A stretch of DNA of 62,561 nucleotides from an uncultured Geobacter sp. (GTDB lineage: Bacteria; Desulfobacterota; Desulfuromonadia; Geobacterales; Geobacteraceae). The number at the start of each line of letters is the position of its first letter. Within the stretch, counting starts at the first letter, position 1. Positions 2-29,970 of the stretch are shown here, piece after piece. The notes beneath the pieces are model-generated. The model was not told the DNA's origin. It saw only the letters and a list, made by a program, of their open reading frames with translations, and did no database searches. The stretch is taken from the NCBI GenBank assembly GCA_903925075.1, contig CAIYDQ010000283.1:1-62561 (forward strand), written 5' to 3'. The position numbers and the translations under genes are program-made.

Positions 2-1459
2 ATGATGGTTGCGCTGGCGCTGCTGGCGCCGGTCGCCTACGGGGAGCAAAAGGGCGCGCATGCAGCCGCCGGCATCCCGGCAGAGCCCGAGGCAGGGGGG
101 CTGCAGGAGAGCGTGCCCGACGAGGCGACCAGCGCCGAGGAGAGCAAAGAGCCGGTAGCAAGAAAGAGCGACGTCGATGCCGTCCACACCGAGGTCGAGA
201 CGCTGCGCGACCAGTGGCAGCAGTCGTTGAGCAGGTCCTATCCCTACACGGTGGTGCAAGCCAACAGGCCCCTGATCGTCAGCGGCGTCGGGCAGATCCG
301 CTACGACCACACCTTCAACGAGATCGCCAACGCACCCGACAGTTTCACGGTTCCTTTCTTCTCTCTCGCCTTCGCCGGCAACCTGAGACGGGACTATCTG
401 GAGGGGAAAAATGTCGATTACCTGTTGGGGATACAGACCACGGGGACGGCAGCTATCAGCATCACCGACGCCTGGCTTTCCTACCAGATATTCAACTCGC
501 TGGACTCCACCGGGCCGAGGCTCAGCATCACCGCCGGCCAGCAAAAGAAGTATTTCGGCATCGAGGCTACGGCAACCGAGGCGTTCCAACCCACGATCAA
601 GCTGGCCCAGTTCGCCACCAACCTCGGTTTGAGCGCGCGGGAACTCGGCCTGGTCCTGGCCGGCGACCTGCTCCCAAATGTGGACTTCGGCTACAACTAC
701 CGGGTGCCGCTTGTGCAGTACTGGCTGGGCGCAATCAACGGCAACGGGGCGAACACCTCGGACAACAACAACAAGAAAGACCTCTTCGCCCGTCTGCAGA
801 TCAACGCGCCGGTCAATTACAGCCACCCCTTGCGGGGACTTTCCTTCGGGGTGTCGGGGTACAGGGGTTGGGACACCAAGACCGCGACCAACACCACCAC
901 CAGGACCACGACCTTCAATCCGGCCAACGGCGGCGCGGCGGTGCCCGTCACCATCTCCACCAGTTCGGCCAGCATCAGCCAGAACGGAAGCAAGGATCGC
1001 TACGGCGCCGACCTCGCCTACGTCAACACGCCGGTCGGCTTCACGCTGGAATACGTCCGCGGGCGCGACCCGGCCGCCGTCAACGGCACGGTGACCGTAG
1101 CCACCACAACCAGCGCCACCCCGGCCACGACCGTCAAGCCGTACCAGTTCAAGGAAGTCGACGAAGAGGCCTATACCTTCACCCTCTTTTACAACTTCGG
1201 AGACCAGTTCGTGACCGCCGCCAAGAACCAGGATCGTTACGACGATTACTATCCGGTCACCTATCAGCCGTTCTTCCGGTTCGACCGCTACGTGCCGGAC
1301 GCCGCCAACTACGGCGTCCACTCGGATCTCTACACGGCGGGCTTCAACTGGTTTTTCGCCCAAACGACCAAGTTGCAGCTCAACTACAATTACAAGCCGA
1401 AAAACAACGGCTCGCCGAGGTCGGACGAGCTGCTGGCGCAGTTCCAATTCGGATTTTAA
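2..1459 (+). CDS. Outer-membrane beta-barrel porin, probably 5'-truncated by the window edge
   Basis: The reading frame is open to the first base of the window. The visible N-terminus (MMVALALLAPVAYGEQ) looks like the hydrophobic core and cleavage site of a Sec signal peptide without its basic start, so the true start probably lies upstream. After cleavage comes an acidic, possibly coiled-coil stretch of about 60 residues. The rest alternates aromatic and polar residues as expected for a porin barrel and ends in FQFGF, with the terminal Phe typical of Bam-assembled barrels. Long Thr/Ser/Asn-rich segments (around residues 295-330) look like surface loops. It lies 43 bp upstream of a periplasmic binding protein on the same strand, so it may be the outer-membrane entry port for the substrate of the ABC systems that follow. 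The porin class is fairly sure; its specificity is not visible. Confidence 0.75.
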   Translation: MMVALALLAPVAYGEQKGAHAAAGIPAEPEAGGLQESVPDEATSAEESKEPVARKSDVDAVHTEVETLRDQWQQSLSRSYPYTVVQANRPLIVSGVGQIRYDHTFNEIANAPDSFTVPFFSLAFAGNLRRDYLEGKNVDYLLGIQTTGTAAISITDAWLSYQIFNSLDSTGPRLSITAGQQKKYFGIEATATEAFQPTIKLAQFATNLGLSARELGLVLAGDLLPNVDFGYNYRVPLVQYWLGAINGNGANTSDNNNKKDLFARLQINAPVNYSHPLRGLSFGVSGYRGWDTKTATNTTTRTTTFNPANGGAAVPVTISTSSASISQNGSKDRYGADLAYVNTPVGFTLEYVRGRDPAAVNGTVTVATTTSATPATTVKPYQFKEVDEEAYTFTLFYNFGDQFVTAAKNQDRYDDYYPVTYQPFFRFDRYVPDAANYGVHSDLYTAGFNWFFAQTTKLQLNYNYKPKNNGSPRSDELLAQFQFGF

Positions 1460-1502
1460 TCGCCGACATCCATAGATTCACTACGAAAAGGAGACCATCT
1501 CG

Positions 1503-2564
1503 ATGAAAAAGATACTCGGCACGTTACTCGCGGTCGCCGCGGCAATCGCTACCTTCGGCGTCGCGCCCGGCTTCGCCGCCGACCATCCCAAGGTCATCCG
1601 CATCGGCCAGCCGTCGGGCTCTTACGGCAAGGCGGTCAGTTTGGGGCCGGTGGGCGAAATTCAGGTCAAGGACCTGTTCGACCAGGAGTTCAAGAAGGAC
1701 GGCATAAAGCTCGAGGTTAACAACATAAAGACCGCCGGACCCGGCTGCAACGAGGCGCTCGCCAACAACGCGCTCGATTTCGCCAACCTCGGCGACCTCC
1801 CCGCCGTCGCCGGCTTCGCGGGTGGCCTGAAGACCCGGGCCGTGGCCGCCACCCGCGGCGGGAACACCTATGTCGCGGTGCCGATCGACTCTCCGATCAC
1901 GAATCTGAAGCAGTTGAAAGGGAAGAAGATCGGCGTCAGCCTCGGCACCTACATGCACGCCGCCGGGCTGAAGATTCTTGCCGACAACGGCCTATCCGAA
2001 AACGACGTCACCTTTTTCAACATGGACAACGCCACCGTCCTCACCGCCATCGCCGCCAAGGAGGTGGAAGCCGCCTTCATCAGCAGCGACGCCATCACCC
2101 TGCGCACCAGGGGCGTCGCCCGGGTGCTGTACAGCACTCAAGGGAAACCGGTTTTTTATCAGAACGCCGGCGCGCTGATCGTGAGGGAGGAGTTCGTCAG
2201 GAAATACCCGGACATCGTCAAGCGCTTCCTCAAGGTATGGGTCAAGGCCTCTCAACTGCACAGCTTCGACAAGAGGGCTGCCCAAAAGCTCGACAGCAGG
2301 GTCGGCACGCCGCTCACCACCCTCCAGGAGGACCAGCAGGGGCAGTCGAACCTCTACCTCAACTCGCCCAAGTTCGACGAGCAGTGGCTCTCCCATGACC
2401 GGCGCTCCATAGCCCTTTTCAAGGCGAAGAGACTGATCCGCAAGAGCTTCGATCCGGAAAAGGAATGGATCGACCGCAGCTTTCTGGACGCCGCCCTCAG
2501 GGAGCTGAACCTGGAAAACTTCTGGCCCGATTACGACGTCAACGGCAACCCGAAGAAAAAGTAA
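1503..2564 (+). CDS. Periplasmic substrate-binding protein, NMT1/SsuA/TauA-like family
   Basis: This 353-residue protein has a clean Sec signal peptide ending near AGFAA/D. The mature part has the features of NMT1/SsuA-type binding proteins: an opening beta strand (KVIRIGQPSG), a central ITNLKQLKGKKIGVSLGT segment that forms the inter-domain hinge, and a C-terminal helical part. Relatives bind sulfonates, taurine, nitrate, or thiamine and riboflavin precursors, so the family alone does not fix the ligand. The start is well supported by AAAGGAGA eight to ten bases upstream of the ATG. Two permease genes and an ATPase follow at once, making a complete importer. The ligand is presumably what the nitrogenase-like enzyme encoded downstream uses, which is an inference from gene order. 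Confidence 0.85.
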   Translation: MKKILGTLLAVAAAIATFGVAPGFAADHPKVIRIGQPSGSYGKAVSLGPVGEIQVKDLFDQEFKKDGIKLEVNNIKTAGPGCNEALANNALDFANLGDLPAVAGFAGGLKTRAVAATRGGNTYVAVPIDSPITNLKQLKGKKIGVSLGTYMHAAGLKILADNGLSENDVTFFNMDNATVLTAIAAKEVEAAFISSDAITLRTRGVARVLYSTQGKPVFYQNAGALIVREEFVRKYPDIVKRFLKVWVKASQLHSFDKRAAQKLDSRVGTPLTTLQEDQQGQSNLYLNSPKFDEQWLSHDRRSIALFKAKRLIRKSFDPEKEWIDRSFLDAALRELNLENFWPDYDVNGNPKKK

Positions 2565-2576
2565 AAGGTGAAGGGT

Positions 2577-3350
2577 ATGAAAATGCGCACGCTGAAAAGA
2601 AAACTTCTGGGGCTGGTGGCGCCGGTGCTGTTGCTGGCGGCTTGGGATTACGTGACGCGGCGGGAACTGTTCTCGCCCCAGTTGCTCCCCCCTTCCGAAA
2701 TGCTGCTCGAAACCTGGTGGGATATGCAGACCAGCGGCGAGCTGGCGCTCAACATGAGGGTCAGCCTCTGCAGGGTGGCCGGCGGCTTCGCTCTGGGGGC
2801 GGCGCTCGGCTTTGCTCTGGGGACCGCGATGGCAACTTGCAAGGCGGTGGACGACTACCTGGGGCCGCTGTTCAACACCGTCCGCCAGGTGCCGATCGTC
2901 GGTTGGCTTCCGTTTCTCATCGTCTGGCTGGGGATCGGGGAACTGTTCAAGGTCGCTTTCATATCCCTGGGAGCACTCATTCCGATGGCGCTCAAGACCT
3001 ATGAGGGGATCAAGGCCGTTTCCCCCGGTTTTCTGGAGCTCGCCCGGGTGTTCGAATTCGGCAGGTTCCGGCAACTGACCAAGATCATGCTCCCCTCGGC
3101 GCTCCCCTCCTTGCTGATCGGCCTGCGCCTGAGCCTGAGCGAAGCCTGGATGCTGGTGGTGGCGGCCGAGCTGGTGGTCGCCAGCGTCGGCATCGGCAAC
3201 ACCATGACCGTGGCGCGCAGGCTTTTTCAGACCGATGTCGTGCTGGTGAGCGTGATCGCCATCGCGATCACCGGTTACCTGGGCAATGCGCTGCTGGCGC
3301 TGCTGGAGGCCCGGTTGCTGGCTTCGCGCCGCCCCACTTGCGCGCAGTGA
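2577..3350 (+). CDS. ABC transporter permease A (SsuC/TauC-like, BPD transport family)
   Basis: This is a membrane permease of about 257 residues with roughly six transmembrane helices. The conserved cytoplasmic EAA-type loop is ARVFEFGRFRQLTKIMLPSALPSLLIGLR in outline, where the coupling helix contacts the ATPase. The start is ambiguous: a GTG at 2568 and ATGs at 2577 and 2583 are all in frame. I chose 2577 because AAGGTG lies just upstream. It begins 12 bp after the binding protein and is followed by a closely related second permease, so the membrane part of this importer is probably a heterodimer. Substrate is not visible from sequence. Confidence 0.85.
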   Translation: MKMRTLKRKLLGLVAPVLLLAAWDYVTRRELFSPQLLPPSEMLLETWWDMQTSGELALNMRVSLCRVAGGFALGAALGFALGTAMATCKAVDDYLGPLFNTVRQVPIVGWLPFLIVWLGIGELFKVAFISLGALIPMALKTYEGIKAVSPGFLELARVFEFGRFRQLTKIMLPSALPSLLIGLRLSLSEAWMLVVAAELVVASVGIGNTMTVARRLFQTDVVLVSVIAIAITGYLGNALLALLEARLLASRRPTCAQ

Positions 3351-3373
3351 TCGGCGCACGCGAGGAAACTATT

Positions 3374-4159
3374 ATGAACATCCCTTTGCAGGTTGCCGGT
3401 TTCCTCGGCAGAAGCTACCGCGGCGCGATCTCCTTTCTGGCGCTGATCGGCATCTGGGCGGCGCTTGCCCGGCTGCAGGCCTTTCCCGCCGAACTGCTCC
3501 CGGCGCCGGACGCGGTGCTAACGACCTTTCTGCAAAGCGCCGCCTCGGGGGTGCTGGGCGCAAGCCTCGGAGCCAGTCTGGGCCGGATCGCCCAAGGCTT
3601 TCTGATCGGCTGCTCGCTCGGTCTTCTGCTGGGAGCGTCGATGGGGGTGTCGCCCGCCGTGGAGAGCCTCTTCGCCCCGTTGTTCAACGCCCTGAGGCAG
3701 GTGCCGATCATCGGCTGGATCCCGCTGATCATCGTCTGGTGCGGCATAGCCGACCTCTCCAAGATCGTCTTCATCGCCTTGGGCGCCTTCTTCCCGATGG
3801 CGATCAACACCTTCGAGGGGATCAGATCGGTGCCCCACGGCTATCTGGAAGTGGCGCGGGTCTTCGAATTCGGGAAGCTGAGGCTGCTGGGCAAGATCGT
3901 GCTCCCCGGAGCGTTGCCGAGCATCGTCACCGGGGTGCGCCTGAGCCTGGGCGCCTCCTGGATGCTGGTGGTCTGGTCCGAGATCAATACCCGCTCCGCC
4001 CCGGGGATCGGCGACATGCTGGATTCGGCCCGCGAGGGGAGCAAGATGGATGTCGTTATCGTCTGCATCGTGGTCATCGGGGCGGTCGCTTTCCTGATCA
4101 ACGAACTGCTCGGCCAGCTGGAAGCGCAGTTGCAGGGATGGAAAAAAACGTCTCGCTAA
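3374..4159 (+). CDS. ABC transporter permease B, paralogue of the preceding permease
   Basis: This 261-residue permease shares long blocks with its upstream neighbour: RQVPIIGWIP against RQVPIVGWLP, ARVFEFGKLR against ARVFEFGRFR, and LSLGASWMLVVW against LSLSEAWMLVVA. The two are therefore tandem paralogues from a local duplication. It has about six transmembrane helices and the EAA coupling loop. The ATG at 3374 is preceded by GAGGAAA. An upstream in-frame TTG would overlap the previous gene and has no ribosome-binding site. Importers of this family usually have one permease gene that forms a homodimer. A heterodimer here could mean an asymmetric or specialised substrate path. Confidence 0.85.
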   Translation: MNIPLQVAGFLGRSYRGAISFLALIGIWAALARLQAFPAELLPAPDAVLTTFLQSAASGVLGASLGASLGRIAQGFLIGCSLGLLLGASMGVSPAVESLFAPLFNALRQVPIIGWIPLIIVWCGIADLSKIVFIALGAFFPMAINTFEGIRSVPHGYLEVARVFEFGKLRLLGKIVLPGALPSIVTGVRLSLGASWMLVVWSEINTRSAPGIGDMLDSAREGSKMDVVIVCIVVIGAVAFLINELLGQLEAQLQGWKKTSR

Positions 4160-4176
4160 AAGAGAAGGAACCGCCA

Positions 4177-4953
4177 ATGGAAAAACTGGGGACATTGAAG
4201 GTGAACAGCCTGAGCAAGGGGTTCGGTCCCAAGGGACAAGGCCTCAAGGTGCTGGACGACGTCAACCTGACGGTGGAGCCCGGAGAGTTCATCTCCATCG
4301 TCGGCCAGAGCGGCTGCGGCAAGACCACCTTTCTGCGGCTGGTGGTCGGGCTGGAATCCGATTACCAGGGAGAAATCCTTTTGGACGGCAAGCGCCTGAA
4401 CGGACCGGACCTGGAGCGAGGCGTCGTTTTCCAGGATCACCGGCTGCTCCCCTGGCTGACCGTCGAGAAAAACGTGGGACTGGGGCTGAAAAACGCCGGC
4501 AAGGGCGAGGCGCGCCGCAAGGTGCAGGAGCATATCGAGCTGGTGGGGCTGAAAGGGTACGAGAAGCACTACCCGCATCAACTCTCCGGCGGCATGTCGC
4601 AGCGCGCCGCCATCGCCCGGGCGCTGGTGAACCGACCGCAGATCCTTATGCTGGACGAGCCGCTGGGCGCCCTGGACGCCCTGACCCGGATGTACATGCA
4701 CCAGGAGTTGGAGCGCATCTGGAGGCAGGAGGGGATCACCATGATCATGGTGACCCACGACATGGACGAGGCCATCTTCCTGTCGGATCGGGTCGTGATC
4801 ATGTCGAGCCGGCCGGGGACCATCAAGAAGATCATGCCGGTCAAGCTCGCCCGCCCGCGGGACCGCGCCAGCATCGAGTTCGCGCGCATCAAAGAGGAGC
4901 TTTTGGAGGAATTCCACCTCCATACCGAGACCCCCTTCGCCTACAGCATATGA
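4177..4953 (+). CDS. ABC transporter ATP-binding protein (SsuB/TauB-like)
   Basis: This 258-residue ATPase energises the importer formed with the two preceding permeases. It has a Walker A motif GQSGCGKTT, a Q-loop in VVFQDHRLLPWLTV, a signature LSGGMSQRAAIARAL, a Walker B LMLDEPLGALDA and a switch histidine in VTHDMDEA. The PWLTV sequence after the Q-loop is typical of the nitrate/sulfonate/taurine importers. I placed the start at ATG 4177 because AGAAGGA precedes it with good spacing. An upstream in-frame ATG at 4138 overlaps permease B and would add 13 residues. The next gene begins 40 bp downstream and encodes a radical SAM protein. Confidence 0.92.
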   Translation: MEKLGTLKVNSLSKGFGPKGQGLKVLDDVNLTVEPGEFISIVGQSGCGKTTFLRLVVGLESDYQGEILLDGKRLNGPDLERGVVFQDHRLLPWLTVEKNVGLGLKNAGKGEARRKVQEHIELVGLKGYEKHYPHQLSGGMSQRAAIARALVNRPQILMLDEPLGALDALTRMYMHQELERIWRQEGITMIMVTHDMDEAIFLSDRVVIMSSRPGTIKKIMPVKLARPRDRASIEFARIKEELLEEFHLHTETPFAYSI

Positions 4954-4993
4954 GCGGATTTCGCAACACATCATTCACAAGGAGAACGAAAGC

Positions 4994-6193
4994 ATGAGCG
5001 CTATCGGCATCAAGGAAAAACTTTATCGGGAACTGGCAGTCAAAAACGCGGTGATGGTGGAGGGGGTCGCCTTCAACCCGCACATTTACCGCAACCTCGA
5101 TCTGGGCGGAAAATACCAGGAACAGGTGCATACCCTGTTCGAGATGGATCACGAACAGCACGTCTCCGTCGCCTTTCCTTGCGGGTTCCGTTCGCCGCAC
5201 GGCCTGCACATCGGCCTGCGCTGGGATAACCGCTCGCAGTTCAGCCTGACCAACGACGACGGGCTCTTTCATCTGCGCGATCGGGGCGCCATCCTCTTCC
5301 CCATCGATTTCGACCGCCGGCCCGCCTATTACCGGTACTCCACCTCCGACGGCACCCCCATGAAAACGGTCGCCGCCTACGGTCGGGAAGGGACCATCAA
5401 CATCGCCTACAGCAACGAGTGCGCCTTGAAGGACAAGGGCGAGGACTGCCTGTTTTGCAACGCCAACGCCACCAAGGACGCCTATGGTGAACAGGAGTGC
5501 ATCTTCTGGAAAAATCCCGGGCAGATCGGCGAAACGGTCGCCGCCGCCTACCGCGAAGGGGCCAAGCACGTCAACCTCACCGGCGGCTTCGTGCCGGAGC
5601 GCCGCGAGATGGACTACTACCTGGACGTTGCCGAGGCGATTCAGGAACATACCGGCCTGCAGGATTTCAACGGCACGGCCGTGATCGGCGCCCCCAAGGA
5701 CTTGAAGGTGATCGACAGGTACAAGGAGGCGGGGTTCCGCACCCTGGCCATCAACATCGAGTGCTGGGACAAGAACTACTTCAACACCATCTGCCCCGGC
5801 AAGGTGAGCCACTGCGGCAGCTGGGAACACTGGATCGAGGCCATCGAGTATGCCTCCTCGGTCTTCGGCCATGGCCGGGTGCGCTCGGGCATCGTGGCCG
5901 GGATCGAGCCCAAGGCGAAGACCCTGGAGGGGCTGGAATACTTCGCATCCAGGGGGATCATCTCGCTTTCCGGCGCCTGGTGCGCGAACCCCGGTTCCGC
6001 CCTGGAGGGGCATCGCACTCCGACCCCGGAATGGCACCTGGACATGGCCTACCGGGCGGCGGCGATCCTGCGCAAGGCGGGCTTCACCTACGAGCAGCTC
6101 TACGACACCTCTCCGTCGCCGACCTTCCTGGTGCACGACATCTTCAGGATCGAGGACGAGTCGCTGCCGGCGTTTCAGCAGGGCGCGGCCTAG
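4994..6193 (+). CDS. Radical SAM protein with a CX8CX2C cluster motif
   Basis: This 399-residue protein has a radical SAM-type core. The likely cluster cysteines are C143, C152 and C155 in NECALKDKGEDCLFCNA. The spacing is CX8CX2C instead of the canonical CX3CX2C. A glycine-rich NLTGGF follows at the position of the GGE motif that contacts SAM. Later segments (VIGAPKDLKVIDRYKEAGF, NIECWD, RSGIVAGIEPK) fit the repeating strands of the barrel. The first 130 residues are an extra N-terminal domain I do not recognise. It sits between two ABC import systems and upstream of the nitrogenase-like genes, suggesting it either processes the imported compound or matures the reductase. Radical SAM membership is likely; the reaction is unknown. 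The AAGGAGAA before ATG 4994 supports the start. Confidence 0.8.
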   Translation: MSAIGIKEKLYRELAVKNAVMVEGVAFNPHIYRNLDLGGKYQEQVHTLFEMDHEQHVSVAFPCGFRSPHGLHIGLRWDNRSQFSLTNDDGLFHLRDRGAILFPIDFDRRPAYYRYSTSDGTPMKTVAAYGREGTINIAYSNECALKDKGEDCLFCNANATKDAYGEQECIFWKNPGQIGETVAAAYREGAKHVNLTGGFVPERREMDYYLDVAEAIQEHTGLQDFNGTAVIGAPKDLKVIDRYKEAGFRTLAINIECWDKNYFNTICPGKVSHCGSWEHWIEAIEYASSVFGHGRVRSGIVAGIEPKAKTLEGLEYFASRGIISLSGAWCANPGSALEGHRTPTPEWHLDMAYRAAAILRKAGFTYEQLYDTSPSPTFLVHDIFRIEDESLPAFQQGAA

Positions 6194-6212
6194 TCCGCAT
6201 GCGAGGAACGAC

Positions 6213-7802
6213 ATGCCATCAGCTATTTCGGTCAAGGATCTGGTCATAGGCTATCTGGACAAGAAAAGCGGCCACACCATGGTGGCGGTCGACAAGGTCA
6301 ATTTCGACATCAGGGAAGGGGAGTTCGTCACCATCGTGGGCTTGAGCGGCTGCGGGAAATCGACCTTTCTCAACGCCGTCGCCGGCCTGGTCAAACGGCA
6401 GCACGGCGAGATACGGGTGAGCGGCAAGCTGGTTGACGGGCCGGGCGCCGACCGGGCCATGGTGTTCCAGAAGGCGTCGCTTCTGCCCTGGCGGCGGGTG
6501 GGGCGCAACATCACCTACGGGCTGGAGCTGGGCGGGATGAGGCCGGACGAGGCGCGGGAAAAGGCGAGCTACTACGTGAACCTGATCAGGCTGAACGGCT
6601 TCGAGCAACATTACCCCCACCAGCTTTCCGGCGGCATGCAGCAGAGGGTGAACCTGGCGCGCGCGCTTGCCTGCGATCCCGAGGTGCTGCTTTTGGACGA
6701 GCCGTTCGCGGCGCTCGACGCCATCACCCGCGAATTAATGCAGCAGGAGCTGCTGGAGTTGTGCGAGAAGGTCGGCAAGACCGTGCTCATGGTTACCCAT
6801 CAGATCGACGAGGCGGTGTTGCTCTCGGACCGGGTCATCGTCTTTTCGGCCCGTCCCGCCCATGTCCTTGCCGACATCGAGATCCCGATCCCCCGTCCCC
6901 GGCGCGGGGAAATCAAGGAGACCGAGGAGTTCCGAGGGCTGGCGAGCCAAATCTGGTCCATCATCGAGGGCAACGCCAACATAGGGGGGGGGCATATGAA
7001 GCTGACCGTGATTCCCAAATCGCATGCCGCCAAGCGGGAGAGGATCGCAAACCTCCTGCTGGGCGGCGGCGTCATCGTGGTTTTCCTGGTCGCCTGGGAG
7101 CTGGTGGGAAGCCTCGCCCTAGTGAATCCGCTCTTCACCAGCGCCCCTTCCCGAGTCCTCAAGGCCGGTCTGATCCTGATCCGGGACGGCACGCTCTGCC
7201 GGCACCTGGCCGTGAGCGGCGCGGAGTTCCTGCTCGGCTTCGCCGCGGCCATCGTCGTCGGTTTCCCGGTCGGGATCGCGCTCGGCTGGTTCAAGTCGGT
7301 CAAAGCCTCGTTCGGTCCCTTCGTCGCCGCCATGCAGGCGACCCCGCGCATCGCCCTGATGCCGCTGTTCATAATCTGGTTCGGGCTGGGGATCACCTCC
7401 AAGGTCGTGGTAGTCGCCCTGAGCGCCGTCTTTCCGCTGATCGTCAACCTGCAGGCCGCCATGAGCACCGTCGACGCGGACCTGGTGCGGGTCGCACGCT
7501 CCTACGGCGCCAGCGGCTGGCAGATCTTCCGCAGCGTCGCCCTGCCGACCTCGGTGCCGTTCCTGATCACCGGCCTGAGGCTCGCGGCCGGCAGGGGGCT
7601 TTTGGGGGTGATCGTCGCCGAGGTGTTCGGCGGGGGGGAGGGGATAGGCTACCTGATCCAGTACGCCGGCGCCACCTTCCAGACCGACAAGGTTTTCGCC
7701 GGCGTGCTGGTGGTCGCGGCCACCGGCATCTCCCTGGACTTCGCGCTGGAGCGGCTCGGTCGTCACTTCGACCGCTGGCGGGGAGAATCGGCGGTGCAGT
7801 GA
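6213..7802 (+). CDS. ABC importer ATPase fused in frame to its permease
   Basis: As written, one open frame of 529 codons encodes an ATPase (residues 1-261) followed without a stop by a permease (from residue 262). The ATPase has Walker A GLSGCGKST, signature LSGGMQQRVNLARAL, Walker B LLLDEPFAALDA and switch His in VTHQIDEA. The permease part has about six transmembrane helices and the coupling segment ARSYGASGWQIFRSVALPTSVPFLITGLR in outline. The junction is nine G (6984-6992) directly before an internal ATG at 6996. With eight G the ATPase would end in a TGA overlapping that ATG as ATGA, giving the usual two-gene layout. So this may be a real fusion, a slippage site, or a one-base sequence error. 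The start at 6213 has GAGGAAC upstream. It forms the second importer with the lipoprotein encoded next. Confidence 0.85.
   Translation: MPSAISVKDLVIGYLDKKSGHTMVAVDKVNFDIREGEFVTIVGLSGCGKSTFLNAVAGLVKRQHGEIRVSGKLVDGPGADRAMVFQKASLLPWRRVGRNITYGLELGGMRPDEAREKASYYVNLIRLNGFEQHYPHQLSGGMQQRVNLARALACDPEVLLLDEPFAALDAITRELMQQELLELCEKVGKTVLMVTHQIDEAVLLSDRVIVFSARPAHVLADIEIPIPRPRRGEIKETEEFRGLASQIWSIIEGNANIGGGHMKLTVIPKSHAAKRERIANLLLGGGVIVVFLVAWELVGSLALVNPLFTSAPSRVLKAGLILIRDGTLCRHLAVSGAEFLLGFAAAIVVGFPVGIALGWFKSVKASFGPFVAAMQATPRIALMPLFIIWFGLGITSKVVVVALSAVFPLIVNLQAAMSTVDADLVRVARSYGASGWQIFRSVALPTSVPFLITGLRLAAGRGLLGVIVAEVFGGGEGIGYLIQYAGATFQTDKVFAGVLVVAATGISLDFALERLGRHFDRWRGESAVQ
6984..6992 (+). repeat. G9 homopolymer at the ATPase-permease junction
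   Basis: Nine consecutive G bases lie between the last ATPase codons and the permease ATG at 6996. Read with nine G the two proteins are fused; read with eight G they separate with an ATGA overlap. Such tracts are prone both to replication slippage and to base-calling error. Confidence 0.9.
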
Positions 7803-7868
7803 AGTTTTGGCGGAGCAGTGAGGTAACCTGAGTTTTGGAAGACGCATTAATCAAGAAGGAGAACAGCC

Positions 7869-8906
7869 ATGAAAAAAATGACCATGCAACTACTGGCGAT
7901 TGCGGCCCTGGCGCTGCTGGCGGGGTGCGCCAAGCAGGACGCCGCCACCGGGGGAGCCGCGGCAAAAGGCGTCGGGGGAGCTGCTTCGCAAGGCTCCGGG
8001 GGATCCGCGGGGAAAAAGACTCTGGTGCGCTACGCCACCATCGGGGTCAACGAGTCGAGCCTTCCGCTCTATCTGGGAGTGAAGAAAGGGTTCTTCGCCG
8101 ATCAGGGGGTCGATCTGAAGATCAGCGATTTCCCGGGCGGCGTCGAGCCGGTGACCGCCGGGGCCGCCGGCGAGATCGATATCGGCGGTGTCGGCTCACC
8201 CGTCGTGGTAGGAGCCGCGGCCGGAGTCCCGCTCAAGATCGTGGGCTCGCCGGTGGAGCCGGGACAGCGCTTCGTGGTGGTCGCACGCCCGAACTACCGG
8301 AGCTTCAAAGAGCTCAAGGGGCAAAAGGTGAGCGGCGGCCGGCCGGGGCAGGGGACCCTCCAGGCGTTCGTCACCATCGCCAAAGCCAACGGGCTGAAGC
8401 TCAGCGACTTCCAGAACCTCGACGCCGGTTTGGGGGCGGGGGCCTACGCCTCGCTGCAATCCGGCCAGATCGAGGCCGTACTGACCACCGAAATCCTCGC
8501 CGCAAAGGCGGAGATCGAAGGGGTCGGCAGGGTGCTGGCCCGCGCGGCTGACTACTTCGGCCGCTACCAGCACACCTATTTCTTCGCCACCGACCGCTTC
8601 ATCGCCCGGCAGCCGCAAGCGGTGCGAGGCTTTCTGGCGGGCTACCGCAAGGCTGTGGAATACGTCAAGGCGCACCCGGAGGAGGCGATCCGATTCGGCG
8701 TCGAGGAACTGAAGCTGGAAGAAAAACCGTTGCGGCGAGTCCTGGAACAGCAGTTGCCCAATTGGGACCCGACCGGCAAGGTGGACGTCGAAGGGACCAA
8801 CAACGCCATCAGGATTCTGAAGGAGTTGGGCGAATTGGACAAGTCGGTGACGGTGACGGCTGAACAGTTGATCGACGACCGGTTTCTGGCGAAGGAACCG
8901 CAATGA
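7869..8906 (+). CDS. Lipoprotein substrate-binding protein of the second importer (NMT1/SsuA-like)
   Basis: This 345-residue protein starts with a lipoprotein signal peptide whose lipobox is LLAGC, so Cys20 should be acylated and the protein held at a membrane. A flexible Ala/Gly/Ser-rich linker of about 25 residues follows. The folded part is a periplasmic binding protein of the NMT1/SsuA type: [19 protein letters not shown] near the N-terminus, [19 protein letters not shown], and [18 protein letters not shown] at the hinge. It is a distinct paralogue of the soluble binding protein at 1503-2564. It follows the fused ATPase-permease by 66 bp, completing a second importer. The start is supported by AAGAAGGAGAAC. 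Having two binding proteins of one family in one operon suggests two ligands, or a substrate and a precursor. Confidence 0.87.
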
Positions 8907-9049
8907 GACGGCCAGCCCGCTGCCGAGGGGAGATCGGCTTGGCGCCGTCTTTAGTGGTTTACCAGAGGAGATATCTAAGGCCGAGGTCCCATCCGCAAGG
9001 AGACTTGGCCTCATATTCACGCACCTTCCAACGGAAAAAGGGGTACGAC
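8907..9049 (+). other. Untranslated leader before the NifH-like gene, with two candidate hairpins
   Basis: This 143-bp gap has no supportable ORF. An outer stem can form between AGACGGC near 8905 and GCCGTCT near 8980, and a second between AGGCCGAGGTC near 8980-8992 and GACTTGGCCT near 9004-9013. The words TTACCAGAG occur both here and just upstream of the NifD-like gene. It could separate expression of the transport half from the reductase half, but no known riboswitch was recognised. Confidence 0.35.
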
Positions 9050-9925
9050 ATGAGCGAGAAAAAAGGCAAACATATCGCCGTTTACGGCAAGGGGGGGATA
9101 GGCAAATCGACGACCACCTCCAATATCTCGGCGGCGCTGGCCGAAGCGGGCTATCGGGTGATCCAGATCGGTTGCGATCCCAAGAGCGATTCCACCACCA
9201 TCCTGCGCGGGGGAAACGACCTGCCGACGGTGCTCGACACCCTGCGCGAGCAGAGCAAGGTGAGGATCGAGGACATCTCGGCGGTGGGTTTCGGCGGCGT
9301 GCTCTGCATCGAGGCGGGCGGACCGGTCCCCGGCGTCGGTTGCGCCGGGCGCGGCATCAACGCGGCGGTGGAATTGCTCCAGGACCTGAAGCTGTTCGAC
9401 GAATACAAGCCGGACTTCGTGCTCTACGACGTGCTGGGGGACGTGGTCTGCGGCGGCTTCGCCGTGCCGATCCGCGACGGCATCGCCGACCGGGCTTTCG
9501 TGGTGACCTCGTCGGACTTCATGGCGGTCTTCGCCGCCAACAACCTGTTCAAGGCGATCAACAAGTACGCCCCCTCCGGCGGCGCGCGGCTGGGCGGGGT
9601 GATCGCCAACAGCCTGCAGCTTCCCTACGCCAAGTCGCTGATCGACGATTTCGCCGGCAAAACCGGGACCGGCGTCATCGGCTACGTGCCGCGCTCCATG
9701 ACCGTTGCCCAGAGCGAGCTTTACGGCCAGACCGTCATCGAGGCGGCTCCGCAGTCGAGCCAGGCCCGGGTCTACCGCGATCTGGCAAACCACATCGATA
9801 GCAACGACCAGAGCGTGATACCCAAACCGCTGAACGGGCCGGAGCTGAAAAAGTGGGCCAGGGAATGGGGCGATCGGATCTTCGAGGTCGATGCCGGCGT
9901 GGTGCACGAGATGGCTGCGATCTAG
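9050..9925 (+). CDS. NifH-like ATP-dependent reductase (nitrogenase superfamily Fe protein)
   Basis: This 291-residue protein has all the hallmarks of the NifH/BchL Fe-protein family. The P-loop is GKGGIGKS at residues 13-20. The two cysteines that hold the bridging 4Fe-4S cluster between subunits are C98 (GVGCAGRG) and C134 (VVCGGFA), and the switch II segment is [10 protein letters not shown]. It should be a homodimer that passes electrons to the NifDK-like partner at the cost of ATP. The start at ATG 9050 gives the expected family N-terminus; an upstream extension in the same frame looks non-coding. NifD-like and NifK-like genes follow, while no nifE, nifN, nifB or nifV is present. It is therefore more likely a dedicated reductase than part of diazotrophy. 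Confidence 0.92.
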
Positions 9926-9959
9926 GAACGCCGGCGTGGTGCACGAGATGGCGGCGATC
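9893..9959 (+). repeat. Tandem 30-bp duplication across the stop codon of the NifH-like gene
   Basis: The 30 bases at 9893-9922, which encode the last residues before the stop, recur at 9930-9959 with one mismatch (GCTGCG against GCGGCG), offset by 37 bp. The second copy is untranslated and sits just before the ribosome-binding site of the NifD-like gene. Confidence 0.9.
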
Positions 9960-9990
9960 CTTGATCGCGCTTACCAGAGAGGACGACGAT

Positions 9991-11403
9991 ATGAGCTTTT
10001 TGAAGGCTAAAGCACCCCGCAGCCGCGAGAAGCGGCTGGACACCATGAGCGCCTGGCAAGGCACGGCGTCGGCCCTGGCGGCTGAACTCTCCGCCAAGGC
10101 CGGGGTGCAGCGGATTCGCACCTTTTCCCAGAGCAGCCACGACGACCTCCTTTATGCTTTGCGACTGCTGGCGGGCATACGCGACAGCGTGACGGTGGTC
10201 CACGCCCCGCGCGGATGCGCCGCCGCCGGTCTTTACTACCAGACGGGCGGCGTCGGCGGACGGATCGCGGTCACCAACCTGGACGAGCGGGACACCATCA
10301 TGGGGGCGGATCTGAAGCTGCGCAGGGCGGTAAAGGCGCTGTATCACCGTTATCGTCCCGAGGTCGTTTTCATCGTCTCCAGTCCGGTGGTGGCCATCAA
10401 CAACGACGACATCCAGTCGGTGGTGGAGGAGTTGCACGAGGAGCTGGAGCTATCGATAGTCCCGGTCTACGTCACCGGTTTCGCCTCGAGTAACGCCGTC
10501 ACCGGCTACGACGCCACGCTGCACGCGCTGCTTAAATACCTGGGCGGGCCGCGCCGAGACCAAGAACCGGGGGGGAAGGTGAATTTGCTGGCGGTAGCCG
10601 AGCAGCGCCAAGATCTGCGCGAGGCGTTGCGGCTCTTGGCGGCTCTGGGCGCGCAGGCCAACGTCCTTCCCGACCGGGCTTCCGCAGGCGCCTTTGAGGA
10701 GGCGACCTCGGCTCGCTTCTCCATCCCCCTGGACCGGGACACCGAAGACTACCTGGGGGCGAGCCTGCGCGACAAATACGGAGTCCCCTACGTCGAGGCG
10801 CCGCGCCCGATCGGCCTCGCGGCCACCGGCCGCTGGCTCGCCGCGCTCGGGGCGGCGCTTGGCACCGAGGAAGAGGCGCGCAAGCTTCACGAGCGGGAGA
10901 CGGAGAGCGCCGGCAGCGAGTTGGGCGGCTTCTCCCTGCTGGGGGTGCGGGTTTACCTTAGCCTGGGGACTGCCGCCGCCTTCGGCCTGCTTGAGTTGGT
11001 GCGGGAGTTCGGCGGCGAGGTGGCGGGCATCACCGTGAGCCACTTGGACCAATTGCACTGCAGGCGGCTGCAAGAGCTTGCCGGGAGGTATCCCGATCTG
11101 CCCGTCCACGTGGCGGACGGGCAGCCGTTCGAGGAGCTTTCCATCATCAAGCGGCTGGCCCCCGATCTCTACCTGGGCGACTCCGCTCACCTGGGGCAGG
11201 TCGGCAGGCTCGGCATCGCCGCGCTTTCTCTGGAAAACGCGCCGATCCTCGGCTACCGCGGTCTCGCCTGGTTGGCCCGCCGCATTTCCCTGGCGCTGGA
11301 AAACCGCTCCTTCGGGGCGGCCCTGGCCGCGATTGCTCCCCCGTATCGGCAGGCCTGGTATCGGCGCAGCCCCAATTGGCACATCAAGCAGGAGGTGAAG
11401 TAA
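9991..11403 (+). CDS. NifD-like subunit of a nitrogenase-superfamily reductase, with reduced cysteine set
   Basis: This 470-residue protein aligns by motif with NifD/BchN-type subunits: HAPRGCAAAGLY matches the second P-cluster cysteine region, and VFIVSSPVVAINNDD matches the segment that normally carries the third cysteine before the GDD-like turn. Here that cysteine is replaced by serine, and the first cysteine position also appears to be serine (FSQSSHDD). Only two cysteines exist in the whole protein, C76 and C357. No counterpart of the FeMo-cofactor Cys and His ligands is visible. A standard nitrogenase active site is therefore unlikely. The ATG at 9991 has AGAGAGGA upstream; longer in-frame starts run through the previous gene. 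With the NifK-like neighbour it should form a heterotetramer. Confidence 0.85.
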   Translation: MSFLKAKAPRSREKRLDTMSAWQGTASALAAELSAKAGVQRIRTFSQSSHDDLLYALRLLAGIRDSVTVVHAPRGCAAAGLYYQTGGVGGRIAVTNLDERDTIMGADLKLRRAVKALYHRYRPEVVFIVSSPVVAINNDDIQSVVEELHEELELSIVPVYVTGFASSNAVTGYDATLHALLKYLGGPRRDQEPGGKVNLLAVAEQRQDLREALRLLAALGAQANVLPDRASAGAFEEATSARFSIPLDRDTEDYLGASLRDKYGVPYVEAPRPIGLAATGRWLAALGAALGTEEEARKLHERETESAGSELGGFSLLGVRVYLSLGTAAAFGLLELVREFGGEVAGITVSHLDQLHCRRLQELAGRYPDLPVHVADGQPFEELSIIKRLAPDLYLGDSAHLGQVGRLGIAALSLENAPILGYRGLAWLARRISLALENRSFGAALAAIAPPYRQAWYRRSPNWHIKQEVK

Positions 11404-11404
11404 C

Positions 11405-12724
11405 ATGGCGGATCATATTGAAGGTTCGCGCAATTCCTGCGCGCTGCATGGAACGCTGGCGGTGGTCGAATCCATAGAGGGCGCCGTCCCCGTCATCCAC
11501 GGCACGGCCGGCTGCGGGGTCCAGAACTACCTCGGGGTGACGCGCCTCAATCCCGGCAGCGATCCGTTCGGAGCTCCGCCGATCTCCTCAAGCAACATCG
11601 GCGAAAAGCACGTGGTCTTCGGCGGCGGCTCCCGGTTGCGCGAACAGCTCAAAAACACGGTGAAGGTGGTGCGGGGCGATCTGTACGCCGTCTTGTCCGG
11701 CTGCGCCACCGAAATGGTCGGAGACGACATACCGGCCATGGCCAAGGAGGGGCGGGAACAGGGTTGGCCGGTGATCTTCGCCAACACCCCCGGCTTTCGA
11801 GGCGCCGTTCACCAGGGGTACCAACTGGCGGTCAAGGCGCTGATCGAGCAACTTCCCGATCTGGGGCTCGCGCCGGTCGGCGCCGCGGCAGCGGGGGCGG
11901 TCAACGTCTGGGGGATCATTCCCCGGCAGGATCCGTTCTGGCGCGGCAACCTGGAGGAACTGGGGCGCCTGTTGGAGGGAATCGGACTGGCGCCCAATCT
12001 GCTGTTCGCGCAGGGGGAGGGGGTTGCCGCCTGGCAGCGGGTCCCCGGCGCGGTCCTGAACCTGGCGGTGTCGAGCTGGGGCGAACTTCCCGCCCGCTTG
12101 TTGGCAGAGCGGTACGGCACGCCCTTGCTGTCCGCCGAGGGCCTGCCGGTTGGCCGCGCGGCGGGAGAACTGCTGCGCCGCCTCGCCCGCTTGCTGTCGC
12201 TCGACCCGGCGCGCGTCGAGGCTTTTATCGAGCAGGAGGAGCGGCGGCTGAACGCCCATCTGGCGGGCCTCGCCGACACCTACTACCGCAACGGCTTTCA
12301 GCGCGAATACGCGCTGGTTGGGGAGAGCGCGCAACTGGCCGGCCTCAACGATTTTCTCGTCGGCACGCTCGGGCTGCTGCCGCGCCTCCTGATCGTCACC
12401 GACAATCCGCCCGAACAGTTGCGGGAAGCGCTGGCGGGACGGCTCGCGGGACAGTCGCCGGGGCGCCCCCCGGAGCTCGCCTTTTCCGAGGATCGGGCGG
12501 AGATTGCCGATCTGATTCTTGCCGCTGCCCCCGAGTTGCTGCTGGGTAGCTCCCTGGAGGCCGGCGTGGCGCGGCAATTGGGGGCGCCTTTTCTACAGGT
12601 TTCCTTTCCCGCCGCGGACCGGGTGTTGTTGAGCCGCGGCTATGCCGGATACCGGGGGGCGGCGACGCTGCTGGAAGACCTGGGGAGCGCGATCCTTGCC
12701 CATGCGCAAGCGGCGGCGCGCTGA
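11405..12724 (+). CDS. NifK-like subunit of a nitrogenase-superfamily reductase
   Basis: This 439-residue protein resembles NifK/BchB-type subunits. It retains three cysteines at the three P-cluster positions: C12 in NSCALHG, C37 in HGTAGCGVQNY and C100 in LSGCATEMVGDD. These are the only cysteines in the protein. Together with C76 of the NifD-like partner they could supply exactly four thiol ligands, enough for one 4Fe-4S cluster at the subunit interface. Compare protochlorophyllide reductase, where three Cys and one Asp hold the cluster. The gene starts one base after the NifD-like stop with a strong AGGAGGTG ribosome-binding site, so the two are probably made in equal amounts. It is the last gene of the operon. 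Superfamily membership is strong; the reaction is unknown. Confidence 0.87.
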   Translation: MADHIEGSRNSCALHGTLAVVESIEGAVPVIHGTAGCGVQNYLGVTRLNPGSDPFGAPPISSSNIGEKHVVFGGGSRLREQLKNTVKVVRGDLYAVLSGCATEMVGDDIPAMAKEGREQGWPVIFANTPGFRGAVHQGYQLAVKALIEQLPDLGLAPVGAAAAGAVNVWGIIPRQDPFWRGNLEELGRLLEGIGLAPNLLFAQGEGVAAWQRVPGAVLNLAVSSWGELPARLLAERYGTPLLSAEGLPVGRAAGELLRRLARLLSLDPARVEAFIEQEERRLNAHLAGLADTYYRNGFQREYALVGESAQLAGLNDFLVGTLGLLPRLLIVTDNPPEQLREALAGRLAGQSPGRPPELAFSEDRAEIADLILAAAPELLLGSSLEAGVARQLGAPFLQVSFPAADRVLLSRGYAGYRGAATLLEDLGSAILAHAQAAAR

Positions 12725-12960: not shown

Positions 12961-13674
12961 TCAGGCCGAGCGTCGGTCCGCGGCAGGCGGCGTCTTGGCC
13001 TGCAGGAACTTGACGGCGTTCGAATCCTTCCAGCGCGTGTACGCCATGGCCATCTCGGCGGCGGTGTTTACCTGCAACTTACTGCGCAGATTGGAGATGT
13101 GCTTCTCCACGGTCTTGATGCTGATGTTGAGCCGGTCGGCGATCGCCTTCCCTTTGTAGCCGGCGCAGGACAGCTCCAACACCTCGCGCTCGCGGTTGGT
13201 GATCTTGGCTATCGGCGACTCCTGGTGACTGCGCTCCTCAACGTAAGAATTGAAGATCAAGTCGGCCACGTCGGGGCAGAGGTAACGCTGCCCCTTCATC
13301 ACCCTGCCGATGGCCAGGCGCAACTCTTCCTTGGTCACCCTTTTCAACAAGTAACCGTCGATGCCGTTCAATAGCCCGCTCATCACTTCAGAGGGGGTTT
13401 CCACGGCGGTCAGGGCGATGATTTTCGTCTGGGGATGGCTTTGCTTGATCAGTTTGAGCGCGGTGAGTCCATCCATCTCGGGCATCATCAGATCGATGAT
13501 CACCACGTCGGGGTTGTGCAGTTCGGTAAGTTGCACCGCCTCAAGGCCGTTTTTAGCGGTGCCGACCACGTTCAGCTCGCTGAAGCTCTTTAGCAGGTAA
13601 CTTACCGCCTCCCGGATCAGGTCGTCGTCGTCGGCTAGCAGGACGCTGATGGTGGTACCGTTCGGGTTTGACAT
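12961..13674 (-). CDS. NarL/FixJ-type response regulator
   Basis: This 237-residue regulator has a receiver domain at residues 8-125, with the acidic cluster DDDD at 15-18, the phospho-acceptor D61 in VVIIDLMMPEMDG and the conserved Thr and Lys in LTAV and LLKR. A LuxR-type helix-turn-helix follows (ITNREREVLELSCAGYKGKAIAD to about residue 205). The tail of about 20 residues is not conserved. No histidine kinase is adjacent, so the partner is encoded elsewhere. It is convergent with the nitrogenase-like operon and divergent from a CheW-like gene, so it may regulate either; nothing in the sequence decides this. GGGAG lies eight bases upstream of the ATG. Confidence 0.92.
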   Translation of the reverse strand: MSNPNGTTISVLLADDDDLIREAVSYLLKSFSELNVVGTAKNGLEAVQLTELHNPDVVIIDLMMPEMDGLTALKLIKQSHPQTKIIALTAVETPSEVMSGLLNGIDGYLLKRVTKEELRLAIGRVMKGQRYLCPDVADLIFNSYVEERSHQESPIAKITNREREVLELSCAGYKGKAIADRLNISIKTVEKHISNLRSKLQVNTAAEMAMAYTRWKDSNAVKFLQAKTPPAADRRSA

Positions 13675-23386: not shown

Positions 23387-24373
23387 CTACTTCGCTTCTT
23401 GGCCGGGCGGCTGATGGCTGTTCCGCCAGGCGCCCTCGTAGGCGGCGTCTATGCCGCGCGGCTCCAGTTGCGCGTCGGTGTAGCCGAGAAAGGAAACCGC
23501 CAGGTAGTTGGCCAGGTCCCAGATCTTCTCGGATTCCAGCTGCTTCTTGAAATAGGGCATGCCGGTGCCGGTTATGCCGTTCATGATCTGGTAATAGAAG
23601 ATGCCGCCGATGTACTTGTTCTCCACCAGATGCCTGCGCAGGGTGGTGAAATTCAGCGGCGGCGGATCGAGGTAGCGCGCCGCGGGTCCCTTGCCGTCGC
23701 CGATCGGCCCGTGGCAGTTGATGCAGAATTCCTGATAGATGCGCTTGCCCCGCTGCAGTGCCGCTTCGGTGGCCGGATAGGGGTTGGGCATGCGCCTCCA
23801 GGGCTCGGGGACTTCGCTGTGCAGCCACTCGACGTTTCGATCGGCTCCCGCCGCGTAGGCCGCCATCGCGGGCGCCTTCCACTTTTTTTGCCGGCTCTGG
23901 CGCAGGTCGGCCGCTTTGCCGCCCAACGCCTGCACGTAGGCGGTCAACTGGGCGATCTCCTTGTCGCCGAGAAACTCCCAGGAGGGCATCAGCGAGATGG
24001 GGCCGGTGAAGCGCGGGTTCACGAAATGGGCCTTGTGCCAATCGTCGGGATGCTCGCCTCCCTCCTGGGAGAGATCGGGACCGGTCCGCTCGCTTCCCAG
24101 GATGGCCGGCTCCTGGCCGACGTAGTCGCCGCTTTGCGCGATGCGCTCCGCCCCGATGTCCCAGTCGCTGGTCCTCACGAAGAGGGAGTGGCAGTAGCTG
24201 CAGCCGTTTCGCACGTAGAGCCGATGCCCCGCCTCCTCTTCGGCGCTCAAGGGGCGCCAGTCGTCGGACGGGATCTCCTTCATGGTCATGGCCGGTATGC
24301 CGACGATGATGAAGGAGGAGGCCCAAAAGACCAGCAGCGCGCCAACTATCAGCAGGGCGGGCGTCATCTTCAT
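23387..24373 (-). CDS. ccoO: CcoO-like cytochrome c fused to a second haem-c domain (cbb3 oxidase)
   Basis: This 328-residue protein has an N-terminal membrane helix (residues 5-27). A CcoO-type domain follows, with haem motif C58-S-Y-C61-H62 and the family segment GSERTGPDLSQEGGEHPDDWHKAH plus a likely Met ligand in LMPSWEFL. A second haem-c domain carries C217-I-N-C220-H221 in FCINCHGPIGDGKGP. Classical cbb3 oxidases use separate CcoO (one haem) and CcoP (two haems) proteins. This protein appears to combine CcoO with one CcoP-like domain, and no separate ccoP is present. It overlaps the ccoN stop by four bases, so the two are translationally coupled. Confidence 0.88.
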   Translation of the reverse strand: MKMTPALLIVGALLVFWASSFIIVGIPAMTMKEIPSDDWRPLSAEEEAGHRLYVRNGCSYCHSLFVRTSDWDIGAERIAQSGDYVGQEPAILGSERTGPDLSQEGGEHPDDWHKAHFVNPRFTGPISLMPSWEFLGDKEIAQLTAYVQALGGKAADLRQSRQKKWKAPAMAAYAAGADRNVEWLHSEVPEPWRRMPNPYPATEAALQRGKRIYQEFCINCHGPIGDGKGPAARYLDPPPLNFTTLRRHLVENKYIGGIFYYQIMNGITGTGMPYFKKQLESEKIWDLANYLAVSFLGYTDAQLEPRGIDAAYEGAWRNSHQPPGQEAK

Positions 24374-25761: not shown

Positions 25762-25774
25762 AAATTGTCCCGAT

Positions 25775-26329
25775 TTACCTGTGGCAAGCGAAGCAGTCGT
25801 GGGTCGCCTTGTTGTCCCGGTGGCACTGGATGCAAAAACCCATCTCGAATTTGCGGGCCTTGACCACGCGGTCCATGGAAGAGACGTCGCCGTGGCACCT
25901 GCCGCAGTCGAAGCCTCTTTGGATGTGCATCGAGTGGTTGAAGTAGACGAATTCGGGCAGCCAGTTCACTCGCTGCCAGACGACGGGCTGATTCCGGGCG
26001 AACTGCTCGCGCAACTGGGCGATGTACGGATAGCTCCTGATGATGCGGGCGTGGCACAAAAGGCAGGTCTGCAGCGGCGGTATGCCGGCGCGCGAGGAGC
26101 GCGCCGCCTCGGTGTGGCACATGAAGCAACTGACGCGTTTCACCTGCACGTGCACCCGGTGGCTGAAGGGGATGGGTTGGCGCGGGCCGAATCCCACCGG
26201 GTAGGGGATGTCGAGATAGACCAGCGCCGCCGCCGCGACCGACAGCAGCACCGCCAGCGCGGCGGCGTTGGCCCAGCGCGGCGTCCTTTTTTCAGGTTCT
26301 CGGTTGTCGGGTTCCGCGGTTTTGTCCAT
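25775..26329 (-). CDS. actA: ActA-like pentahaem cytochrome c of alternative complex III
   Basis: This 184-residue protein has one N-terminal membrane anchor (about residues 20-42) and five CXXCH haem motifs: CFMCH, CLLCH, CGRCH, CIQCH and CFACH. The arrangement, with PFSHRVHV before the first motif and FNHSMHIQRGFDCGRCHG in the middle, matches ActA, the pentahaem subunit of alternative complex III. It should pass electrons from the iron-sulfur subunit ActB toward cytochrome c or the oxidase. It starts one base after the actF stop. Confidence 0.88.
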   Translation of the reverse strand: MDKTAEPDNREPEKRTPRWANAAALAVLLSVAAAALVYLDIPYPVGFGPRQPIPFSHRVHVQVKRVSCFMCHTEAARSSRAGIPPLQTCLLCHARIIRSYPYIAQLREQFARNQPVVWQRVNWLPEFVYFNHSMHIQRGFDCGRCHGDVSSMDRVVKARKFEMGFCIQCHRDNKATHDCFACHR

Positions 26330-26330
26330 G

Positions 26331-29268: not shown

Positions 29269-29320
29269 ATATTTCTCCGGGATGTGGGGCTTAACAGGGA
29301 TAAAAACAAGTCAAAGGCCT

Positions 29321-29944: not shown

Positions 29945-29970
29945 TGCCTCGTTTTTAATCGTTGTGCCGT

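Follow-up and report, generated by a model that had tools for sequence, protein, structure and literature searches.

The isethionate reductase IsrBHDK of Rhodobacter capsulatus, comprising a radical S-adenosylmethionine (SAM) protein (B), a NifH-like reductase (H) and the nitrogenase-like subunits D and K, was demonstrated by genetics in 2024 (PMC11423573). In anaerobic growth, mutants in B, H, DK or the importer SsuCAB fail on isethionate, the isrDK mutant is rescued by the isethionate lyase genes islAB, and B, H, D and K together with SsuCAB give R. sphaeroides growth on isethionate (PMC11423573). An iron-sulfur spectrum was reported for IsrDK; IsrD has only the cysteine of the Cys88 site, with Pro or Ser at the Cys154 site, and IsrK has cysteines 12, 37 and 99 (PMC11423573). 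The role of the radical-SAM partner, and that of MarB in methylthio-alkane reductase (Mar), is an open question according to the authors (PMC11423573). IsrBHDK is also named as a hidden Markov model in a gut survey (PMC12330013). Here we describe a candidate Isr-family operon at positions 2-12724 of a 62,561-nucleotide contig from an uncultured Geobacter sp. (CAIYDQ010000283.1; the whole stretch is referred to as the window).

The operon shares with IsrBHDK/SsuCAB the genes for a radical-SAM protein, H, D and K (HDK) and an SsuABC-type ATP-binding cassette (ABC) importer, the cysteine pattern of D, K and H, and the D clade. It differs from R. capsulatus Isr in having two radical-SAM proteins per HDK set, a porin, a second, partly fused ABC importer, and SAM and cysteine synthases. 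Like MarHDK, it would use nitrogenase-like C-S chemistry on organosulfur compounds for sulfur supply, but it belongs to a separate clade, differs in the P-cluster-site residues and has another radical-SAM partner. Isethionate lyase (IslAB) likewise releases sulfite from isethionate anaerobically, but is a glycyl radical enzyme with an activase and has no nitrogenase-like part.

We read the operon as an Isr-family system for sulfur assimilation by sulfonate uptake and C-S cleavage in a Geobacterales bacterium, with a probability of roughly 0.77. The enzyme family itself is already known, having been named in 2024. No description of two to nine radical-SAM paralogs, of the linkage to SAM synthase (metK) and nucleosidase genes, or of a distribution in Geobacterales and Chlorobiaceae was found in the open-licence PMC literature, and the words 'Geobacter' and 'Chlorobi' have zero counts in the text of PMC11423573, supplements aside.

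The operon contains eleven open reading frames (ORFs) on the same strand. The sequence-only reading had listed eleven head-to-tail functions, all of which were matched by profile searches:

2..1459, + strand: outer-membrane porin, 5′ end missing (Porin_O_P match; first nine residues on contig C139 of the same genome, see below)
1503..2564, + strand: SBP1, SsuA-type periplasmic substrate-binding protein (NMT1; SsuA_fam 132.8 bits, under the cut-off of 163.5)
2568..3350, + strand: perm1, ABC permease, SsuC/TauC-like (BPD_transp_1)
3338..4159, + strand: perm2, ABC permease (BPD_transp_1; ORF as called, an internal ATG being a shorter start)
4177..4953, + strand: ABC ATPase, SsuB/TauB-like (ABC_tran)
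4994..6193, + strand: radical-SAM protein, IsrB paralog, CX8CX2C motif with Cys143, Cys152 and Cys155 (NF045502 458 bits, cut-off 125; tree and constraint test)
6213..7802, + strand: ABC ATPase-permease fusion of 529 residues (ABC_tran and BPD_transp_1)
7869..8906, + strand: SBP2, SsuA-type binding lipoprotein (NMT1; lipobox read by eye)
9050..9925, + strand: IsrH-like reductase with Cys98 and Cys134 (Fer4_NifH 327 bits; 75% identity to Rhodovulum strictum)
9991..11403, + strand: IsrD-like catalytic subunit with a single P-cluster-site cysteine, Cys76 (Oxidored_nitro; tree; residue alignment)
11405..12724, + strand: IsrK-like catalytic subunit with Cys12, Cys37 and Cys100 (Oxidored_nitro 240 bits; residue alignment)

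Family assignment of H, D and K

On sequence grounds, the window H, D and K are members of the isethionate reductase family IsrBHDK. R. strictum was used as the stand-in for Isr comparisons; it carries K-D-H-B in the published R. capsulatus order, and an NtaA/DmoA-family monooxygenase, a permease, an NMT1 binding protein and an ATPase in the order of rcc02222-02225. Identities between the window and R. strictum were 52% for the radical-SAM protein, 75% for H, 35% for D and 40% for K. In a tree of 35 D sequences, the window D fell with R. strictum into an 18-row Isr-like clade (support 100/100), with Mar in a separate clade (100/100) and nitrogenase (Nif) also apart. An 80-row D tree agreed, giving a 36-row Isr-like clade with a Shimodaira-Hasegawa-like approximate likelihood ratio support of 96. 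Of the 42 loci collected, 38 are Isr-like (L081-L084 are not), and 35 of these entered the 80-row tree; L048, with a D broken in two, L086, with a D that is too short, and L058, whose full-length D was taken out by the duplicate filter, were left out.

The residue pattern also follows Isr. The Cys88 site of D is Cys in all 36 Isr-like sequences, and the cysteines of the window K (12, 37 and 100) are kept in 35 of 35 other rows. The H cysteines, 98 and 134, correspond to 99 and 135 of IsrH. At the Cys62 site, Isr-like rows have Phe or Tyr (one gap), and Phe also occurs in Mar and other group IV rows; this column is unreliably aligned (the paper gives Arg). At the FeMo-cofactor ligand sites Cys275 and His442 the window D has Asp and Glu, in line with the earlier remark that the ligand pattern is unlike that of a cofactor-bearing enzyme. 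The Cys275 site varies in a 13-row subclade containing Geobacter OR-1, UBA698, E14 and some Chlorobiaceae, with Cys in eight rows, Ser in four and Thr in the remaining one.

A variant of Mar acting on a thioether would account for the closest solved structures to D being Mar chains (9d9u and 9fmg, E 1e-68). This reading is very improbable, because Mar and the Isr-like proteins form distinct, fully supported clades, and constraining the window D to Mar was rejected by the approximately unbiased (AU) test (p 6e-36; the MarD row was identified by its match to PDB 9fmg, E 5e-274). Further, the Cys154 site is Cys in Mar rows and Pro in 35 of the 36 Isr-like sequences, the window D included (Ser in the other), and the importers are sulfonate-type. 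Nitrogenase identity was also rejected, the window D lying outside the Nif clade without the Cys275 and His442 ligands. The sequence-only reading had held that the combination has no assigned function, and had named placement of the DK proteins in a characterised clade as a refutation. The trees rule out membership in Mar, nitrogenase and BchN (CfbD and BchY were absent from the trees), but they also place D within a characterised clade, that of isethionate reductase (PMC11423573), so that the statement on function does not stand.

Oxidored_nitro matches number six in the genome. Those on contig C34 belong to NifD, NifK and a fused NifEN, all exceeding their NCBIfam cut-offs; the others are the window D and K. 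Since only D and K lie outside the C34 nif set, the genome has one DK pair of the Isr kind. As had been noted from the sequence, nifE, nifN and nifB are absent from the operon.

Upstream continuation and the second radical-SAM protein

The window begins at a contig end. Its first 28 bases match the final 28 of contig C139 exactly, and C139 carries, in frame, the porin start codon and first nine residues, which resemble the start of the E14 porin; the operon therefore continues upstream of the window. The gene order on C139 is Rrf2-family regulator (116 bits, cut-off 73), sulfate-binding protein (553, cut-off 288), NifH-like protein, cysteine synthase A (463, cut-off 351), SAM synthase (563, cut-off 309), radical-SAM protein and major facilitator superfamily (MFS) transporter. 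The regulator scored 87 bits with the CymR model, under the cut-off of 195.

Similar blocks were found in relatives. In E14 the order is Rrf2, cysK, metK, MFS, porin, SBP1, perm1, perm2, ATPase, small protein, three radical-SAM genes, ATPase, permease and SBP2, with HDK about 10 kb further on. The UBA698 block starts with Rrf2-cysK, a NifH-like gene, a second Rrf2-cysK, metK, MFS and three acyl-CoA-dehydratase-type genes, and continues with porin, SBP1, perm1, perm2, ATPase, four radical-SAM genes and MFS; its HDK genes are on another contig. The X3 block contains Rrf2, a sulfate-binding protein, two ORFs unmatched by any query, an ABC ATPase and a NifH-like gene. The upstream blocks are sulfur-assimilation company for the operon. 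Because importer, radical-SAM and HDK genes recur together in relatives, their linkage exceeds chance, and the linkage to the importers read from the window alone is borne out. The ATPase-permease fusion corresponds to two separate genes in the relatives examined (E14 counterparts 85% and 73% identical), and is therefore either local to the source genome or a sequencing error.

The radical-SAM protein on C139, found by searching the genome with the window protein, is 55% identical to it. A 32-sequence radical-SAM tree grouped the C139 copy with IsrB of Rhodovulum and Rhodopseudomonas and one C. polyendosporum copy (100/96). The sister clade (95/94) comprised the window protein, two copies from UBA698 (one of them 77% identical), the remaining three from C. 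polyendosporum and two from Paenibacillus; constraining the window protein to the IsrB clade was rejected (AU p 1.4e-4). The tree and the test indicate that the window gene is an IsrB paralog and that the IsrB-type gene lies upstream on C139, giving one HDK set with two radical-SAM partners. The D and radical-SAM trees disagree: the UBA698 D groups with those of E14 and OR-1, and the radical-SAM copies of E14 and OR-1 are of another class (38-45% identical to the window protein), with the four UBA698 copies (59-77%) being of the window/Chlorobiaceae class.

The proposed pathway begins with sulfonates crossing the outer membrane through the porin and entering through the two SsuA-type ABC importers and the MFS carrier, roles suggested by the protein families. 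The radical-SAM protein would activate the sulfonate, and H would pass ATP-driven electrons to a putative [4Fe-4S] cluster held by Cys76 of D and Cys12, Cys37 and Cys100 of K, all of which are present. The radical-SAM protein and H/DK together would break the C-S bond and free sulfite, a step supported by complementation in R. capsulatus and predicted for the source organism. Sulfite would then be reduced to sulfide, which the cysteine synthase of the operon would convert to cysteine. Four NIR_SIR matches in the source genome make sulfite reduction possible. Eight matches to Xsc were found, none above its cut-off, and all 14 control genomes likewise gave matches under the cut-off (IslAB, SsuD and TauD lay outside this search). 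SAM would be provided by the SAM synthase of the operon. The single HDK set would have two partners, IsrB beside the MFS carrier on C139 and the paralog between the two ABC importers in the window.

Several observations weigh against the proposed sulfonate system. R. capsulatus sequences were outside the collections searched, which is why R. strictum serves in their place, and the low identities of D and K to R. strictum mean that the substrate may differ. The radical-SAM protein of the window is excluded from the IsrB clade, SBP1 and SBP2 are both under the SsuA_fam cut-off, and the contig join has a 28-base overlap and the gene order, rather than sequencing reads, behind it. The same machinery could act on another scarce organosulfur compound or organic anion, in keeping with the distance of D and K from R. 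strictum, the diverse anions bound by SsuA-type proteins, and the remote radical-SAM family and acyl-CoA-dehydratase-type genes of several related loci. We consider a non-sulfonate substrate unlikely, as a sulfate-binding protein and cysteine synthase stand in the same operon and sulfur genes also occur in the relatives. The earlier suggestions of sulfonate-type importers and of a scarce external compound that is taken up and reduced are supported, an organosulfur compound being the likeliest.

Radical-SAM copy number and a possible role in the choice of substrate

The comparison covered 86 Chlorobiaceae genomes. An Isr-type D (E 1e-80 or better) was present in 23, and the same 23 carry a radical-SAM protein of at least 39% identity over at least 280 residues, with no stops. 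Among the other 63, there was one radical-SAM fragment, and four genomes had the remote class only (29-31%). At least two copies were present in 14 of the 23 genomes and one copy in 9, the highest numbers being nine (in a genome with two D), then eight and seven (each with a single D). In loci L046, L049, L053 and L056, ortholog pairs are 86-98% identical and paralogs within a locus 66-88%, so that the ranges touch. The species of L046 and L053 are closely related (H 99%, D 93%). More informative is the comparison of L049 with L056, where D is 73% identical and four pairs of radical-SAM proteins reach 86-93%. The three E14 copies each pair with a different Chlorobiaceae copy across phyla, one of the pairings being weak (80/47). 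C. polyendosporum has four copies and one Isr-type HDK set; three of the copies adjoin ABC importer genes, and one adjoins an MFS carrier 44% identical to that on C139. One copy in Geobacter OR-1 is in pieces, and one Chlorobiaceae copy (G473) has two in-frame stops.

In the order of the source organism, such a radical-SAM protein was found in 5 of 141 genomes, and in none of the 18 other genomes of its genus; the system is therefore uncommon in that order and may be mobile. Searching plasmids with D and with the radical-SAM protein returned distant relatives only, and a viral-contig scan with the radical-SAM protein led nowhere. In 394 genomes of Rhodovulum's family, only R. strictum itself was found. 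A short-chain dehydrogenase/reductase gene precedes H in 12 Chlorobiaceae loci; none of the 16 PDB sequences that it matched at E 1e-30 is named as a sulfoacetaldehyde reductase, and no substrate was therefore drawn from it.

Genes for SAM supply adjoin the system in some loci. Directly before H, metK is found in three of the 42 loci, those of C. polyendosporum and of two Paenibacillus, and it is also present in the upstream blocks of the source genome, E14 and UBA698. In OR-1, a gene of the 5′-methylthioadenosine (MTA)/S-adenosylhomocysteine (SAH) nucleosidase family (over the TIGR01704 cut-off) follows K. E14 and UBA698 have nucleosidase genes 77-85% identical to it, each with a purine-type permease, and Paenibacillus S150 has another nucleosidase gene between the radical-SAM gene and the importer. 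MTA/SAH nucleosidases also clear 5′-deoxyadenosine. Because SAM-synthase and nucleosidase genes adjoin the system, these neighbours suggest that SAM is spent in turnover. Neither gene was seen in most of the loci examined.

We tentatively propose, at somewhat under even odds, that the radical-SAM protein, not the nitrogenase-like part, picks the substrate. One HDK set would be common to interchangeable radical-SAM proteins, each of which would activate a different sulfonate from its own importer and use one SAM per turn; SAM synthase would supply the SAM and nucleosidase would clear the 5′-deoxyadenosine. If true, desulfurisation would be carried out by a modular machine, of which the window operon is the two-module form, and this would explain how green sulfur bacteria and Geobacter relatives may use several organosulfur compounds through one costly ATP-driven reductase. 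The role of the radical-SAM protein is directly testable in natural operons that combine a single HDK set with two to eight paralogs. Some findings argue against such modularity. There is a single copy in R. strictum, in three Rhodopseudomonas genomes and in the 9 Chlorobiaceae genomes mentioned above, and an importer per copy was not found in Chlorobiaceae arrays of up to seven copies. Group-specific radical-SAM residues were not enriched on the presumed catalytic face (6/67 against 11/152, p 0.78), with the face assigned from secondary structure without coordinates. Five of the 38 Isr-like stretches (L052, L057, L064, L069 and L076) lack a radical-SAM gene of at least 250 residues, which also counts against tight linkage; three of these stretches (L057, L064 and L069) are contigs shorter than 9 kb, and the L052 genome has four copies on another contig. 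The R. capsulatus locus has two importers, only one of which is needed (PMC11423573), so extra importers need not mean extra substrates.

The main competing possibility, to which we give clearly less than even odds, is that the radical-SAM proteins are maturases or activases of HDK, resembling NifB or placing a radical on a partner as PflA and IslB do, with extra copies reflecting redundancy or dosage and DK and the importers choosing the substrate. The R. capsulatus authors left both radical-SAM roles open and reported differing histories for radical-SAM proteins and HDK in Isr, Mar and Nif (PMC11423573); the single-copy genomes and the residue statistics above are also consistent with maturation. 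Genomes with as many as nine intact copies alongside one or two D are difficult to reconcile with it, and the 86-98% ortholog groups between genomes together with the cross-phylum pairs argue for distinct, conserved functions, as SAM consumed in turnover would. Only four cysteines are near-invariant in the 32 radical-SAM proteins (143, 152, 155 and 267), fewer than the extra clusters of NifB need. In a fold search with the predicted model (predicted local distance difference test score 92.5), NifB ranked only 47th. The best matches were lipoyl synthase, HydE, PylB and biotin synthase; these were weak, with template modelling scores of 0.41-0.46 of the query, and therefore only the barrel was matched. 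A phmmer search of the radical-SAM protein against PDB chains gave no match at 0.01.

Related genes and other features of the window

A remote radical-SAM class, 24-31% identical to the window protein and with the same CX8CX2C motif, accounts for 16 of 71 radical-SAM ORFs (L046:14519-15781 and relatives). It recurs in many Isr-like loci, and a small protein (about 160 residues, no Pfam match) often comes after it. Genes of acyl-CoA-dehydratase activase and HGD-D type, another kind of ATP-driven reductase, lie in or beside Isr-like loci of Chlorobiaceae (L045, L046, L047, L053) and Geobacterales (L170, L173).

The NifH-like protein of C139 (L138:2140-3024) lacks the P-loop lysine and both cluster cysteines, and is likely a pseudo-enzyme. 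UBA698 and X3 have other extra NifH-like genes in their upstream blocks (L176:10015-10932 and L177:14870-15751). In islands of Geobacterales relatives, sulfonate-type ABC genes are interspersed with D-type nitrogenase-like proteins, four to six per island and each next to a K-type protein (G029:C50:19013-60177 with L032-L034, G007 with L029-L031, G024 with L036-L039, and G055 with L040-L042). The D proteins of these islands are not Isr; several are near Mar and others belong to clades without a named member. Oxidored_nitro proteins are unusually many in Paenibacillus sp. S150 (18) and P. rhizophilus (17, one of them a fragment).

The operon has a G+C content of 64.1%, compared with 61.9% in the remainder of the window, 60.5% in C139 and 61.2% in the contig with the nif genes. 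By this one weak test there is no G+C mismatch, and an origin of the operon from a foreign contig was rejected. The whole window contains no tRNA and no Rfam match at the gathering threshold. A response regulator follows K on the opposite strand (12961-13674). A perfect GGATCT repeat of 9.7 copies (18998-19055) encodes the C-terminal Asp-Pro tail of a P-type ATPase. A minus-strand cluster at 24370-32919, encoding cytochrome oxidase subunit I, an ActD/NrfD protein and a molybdopterin Fe4S4-domain protein, is probably an alternative complex III with a terminal oxidase.

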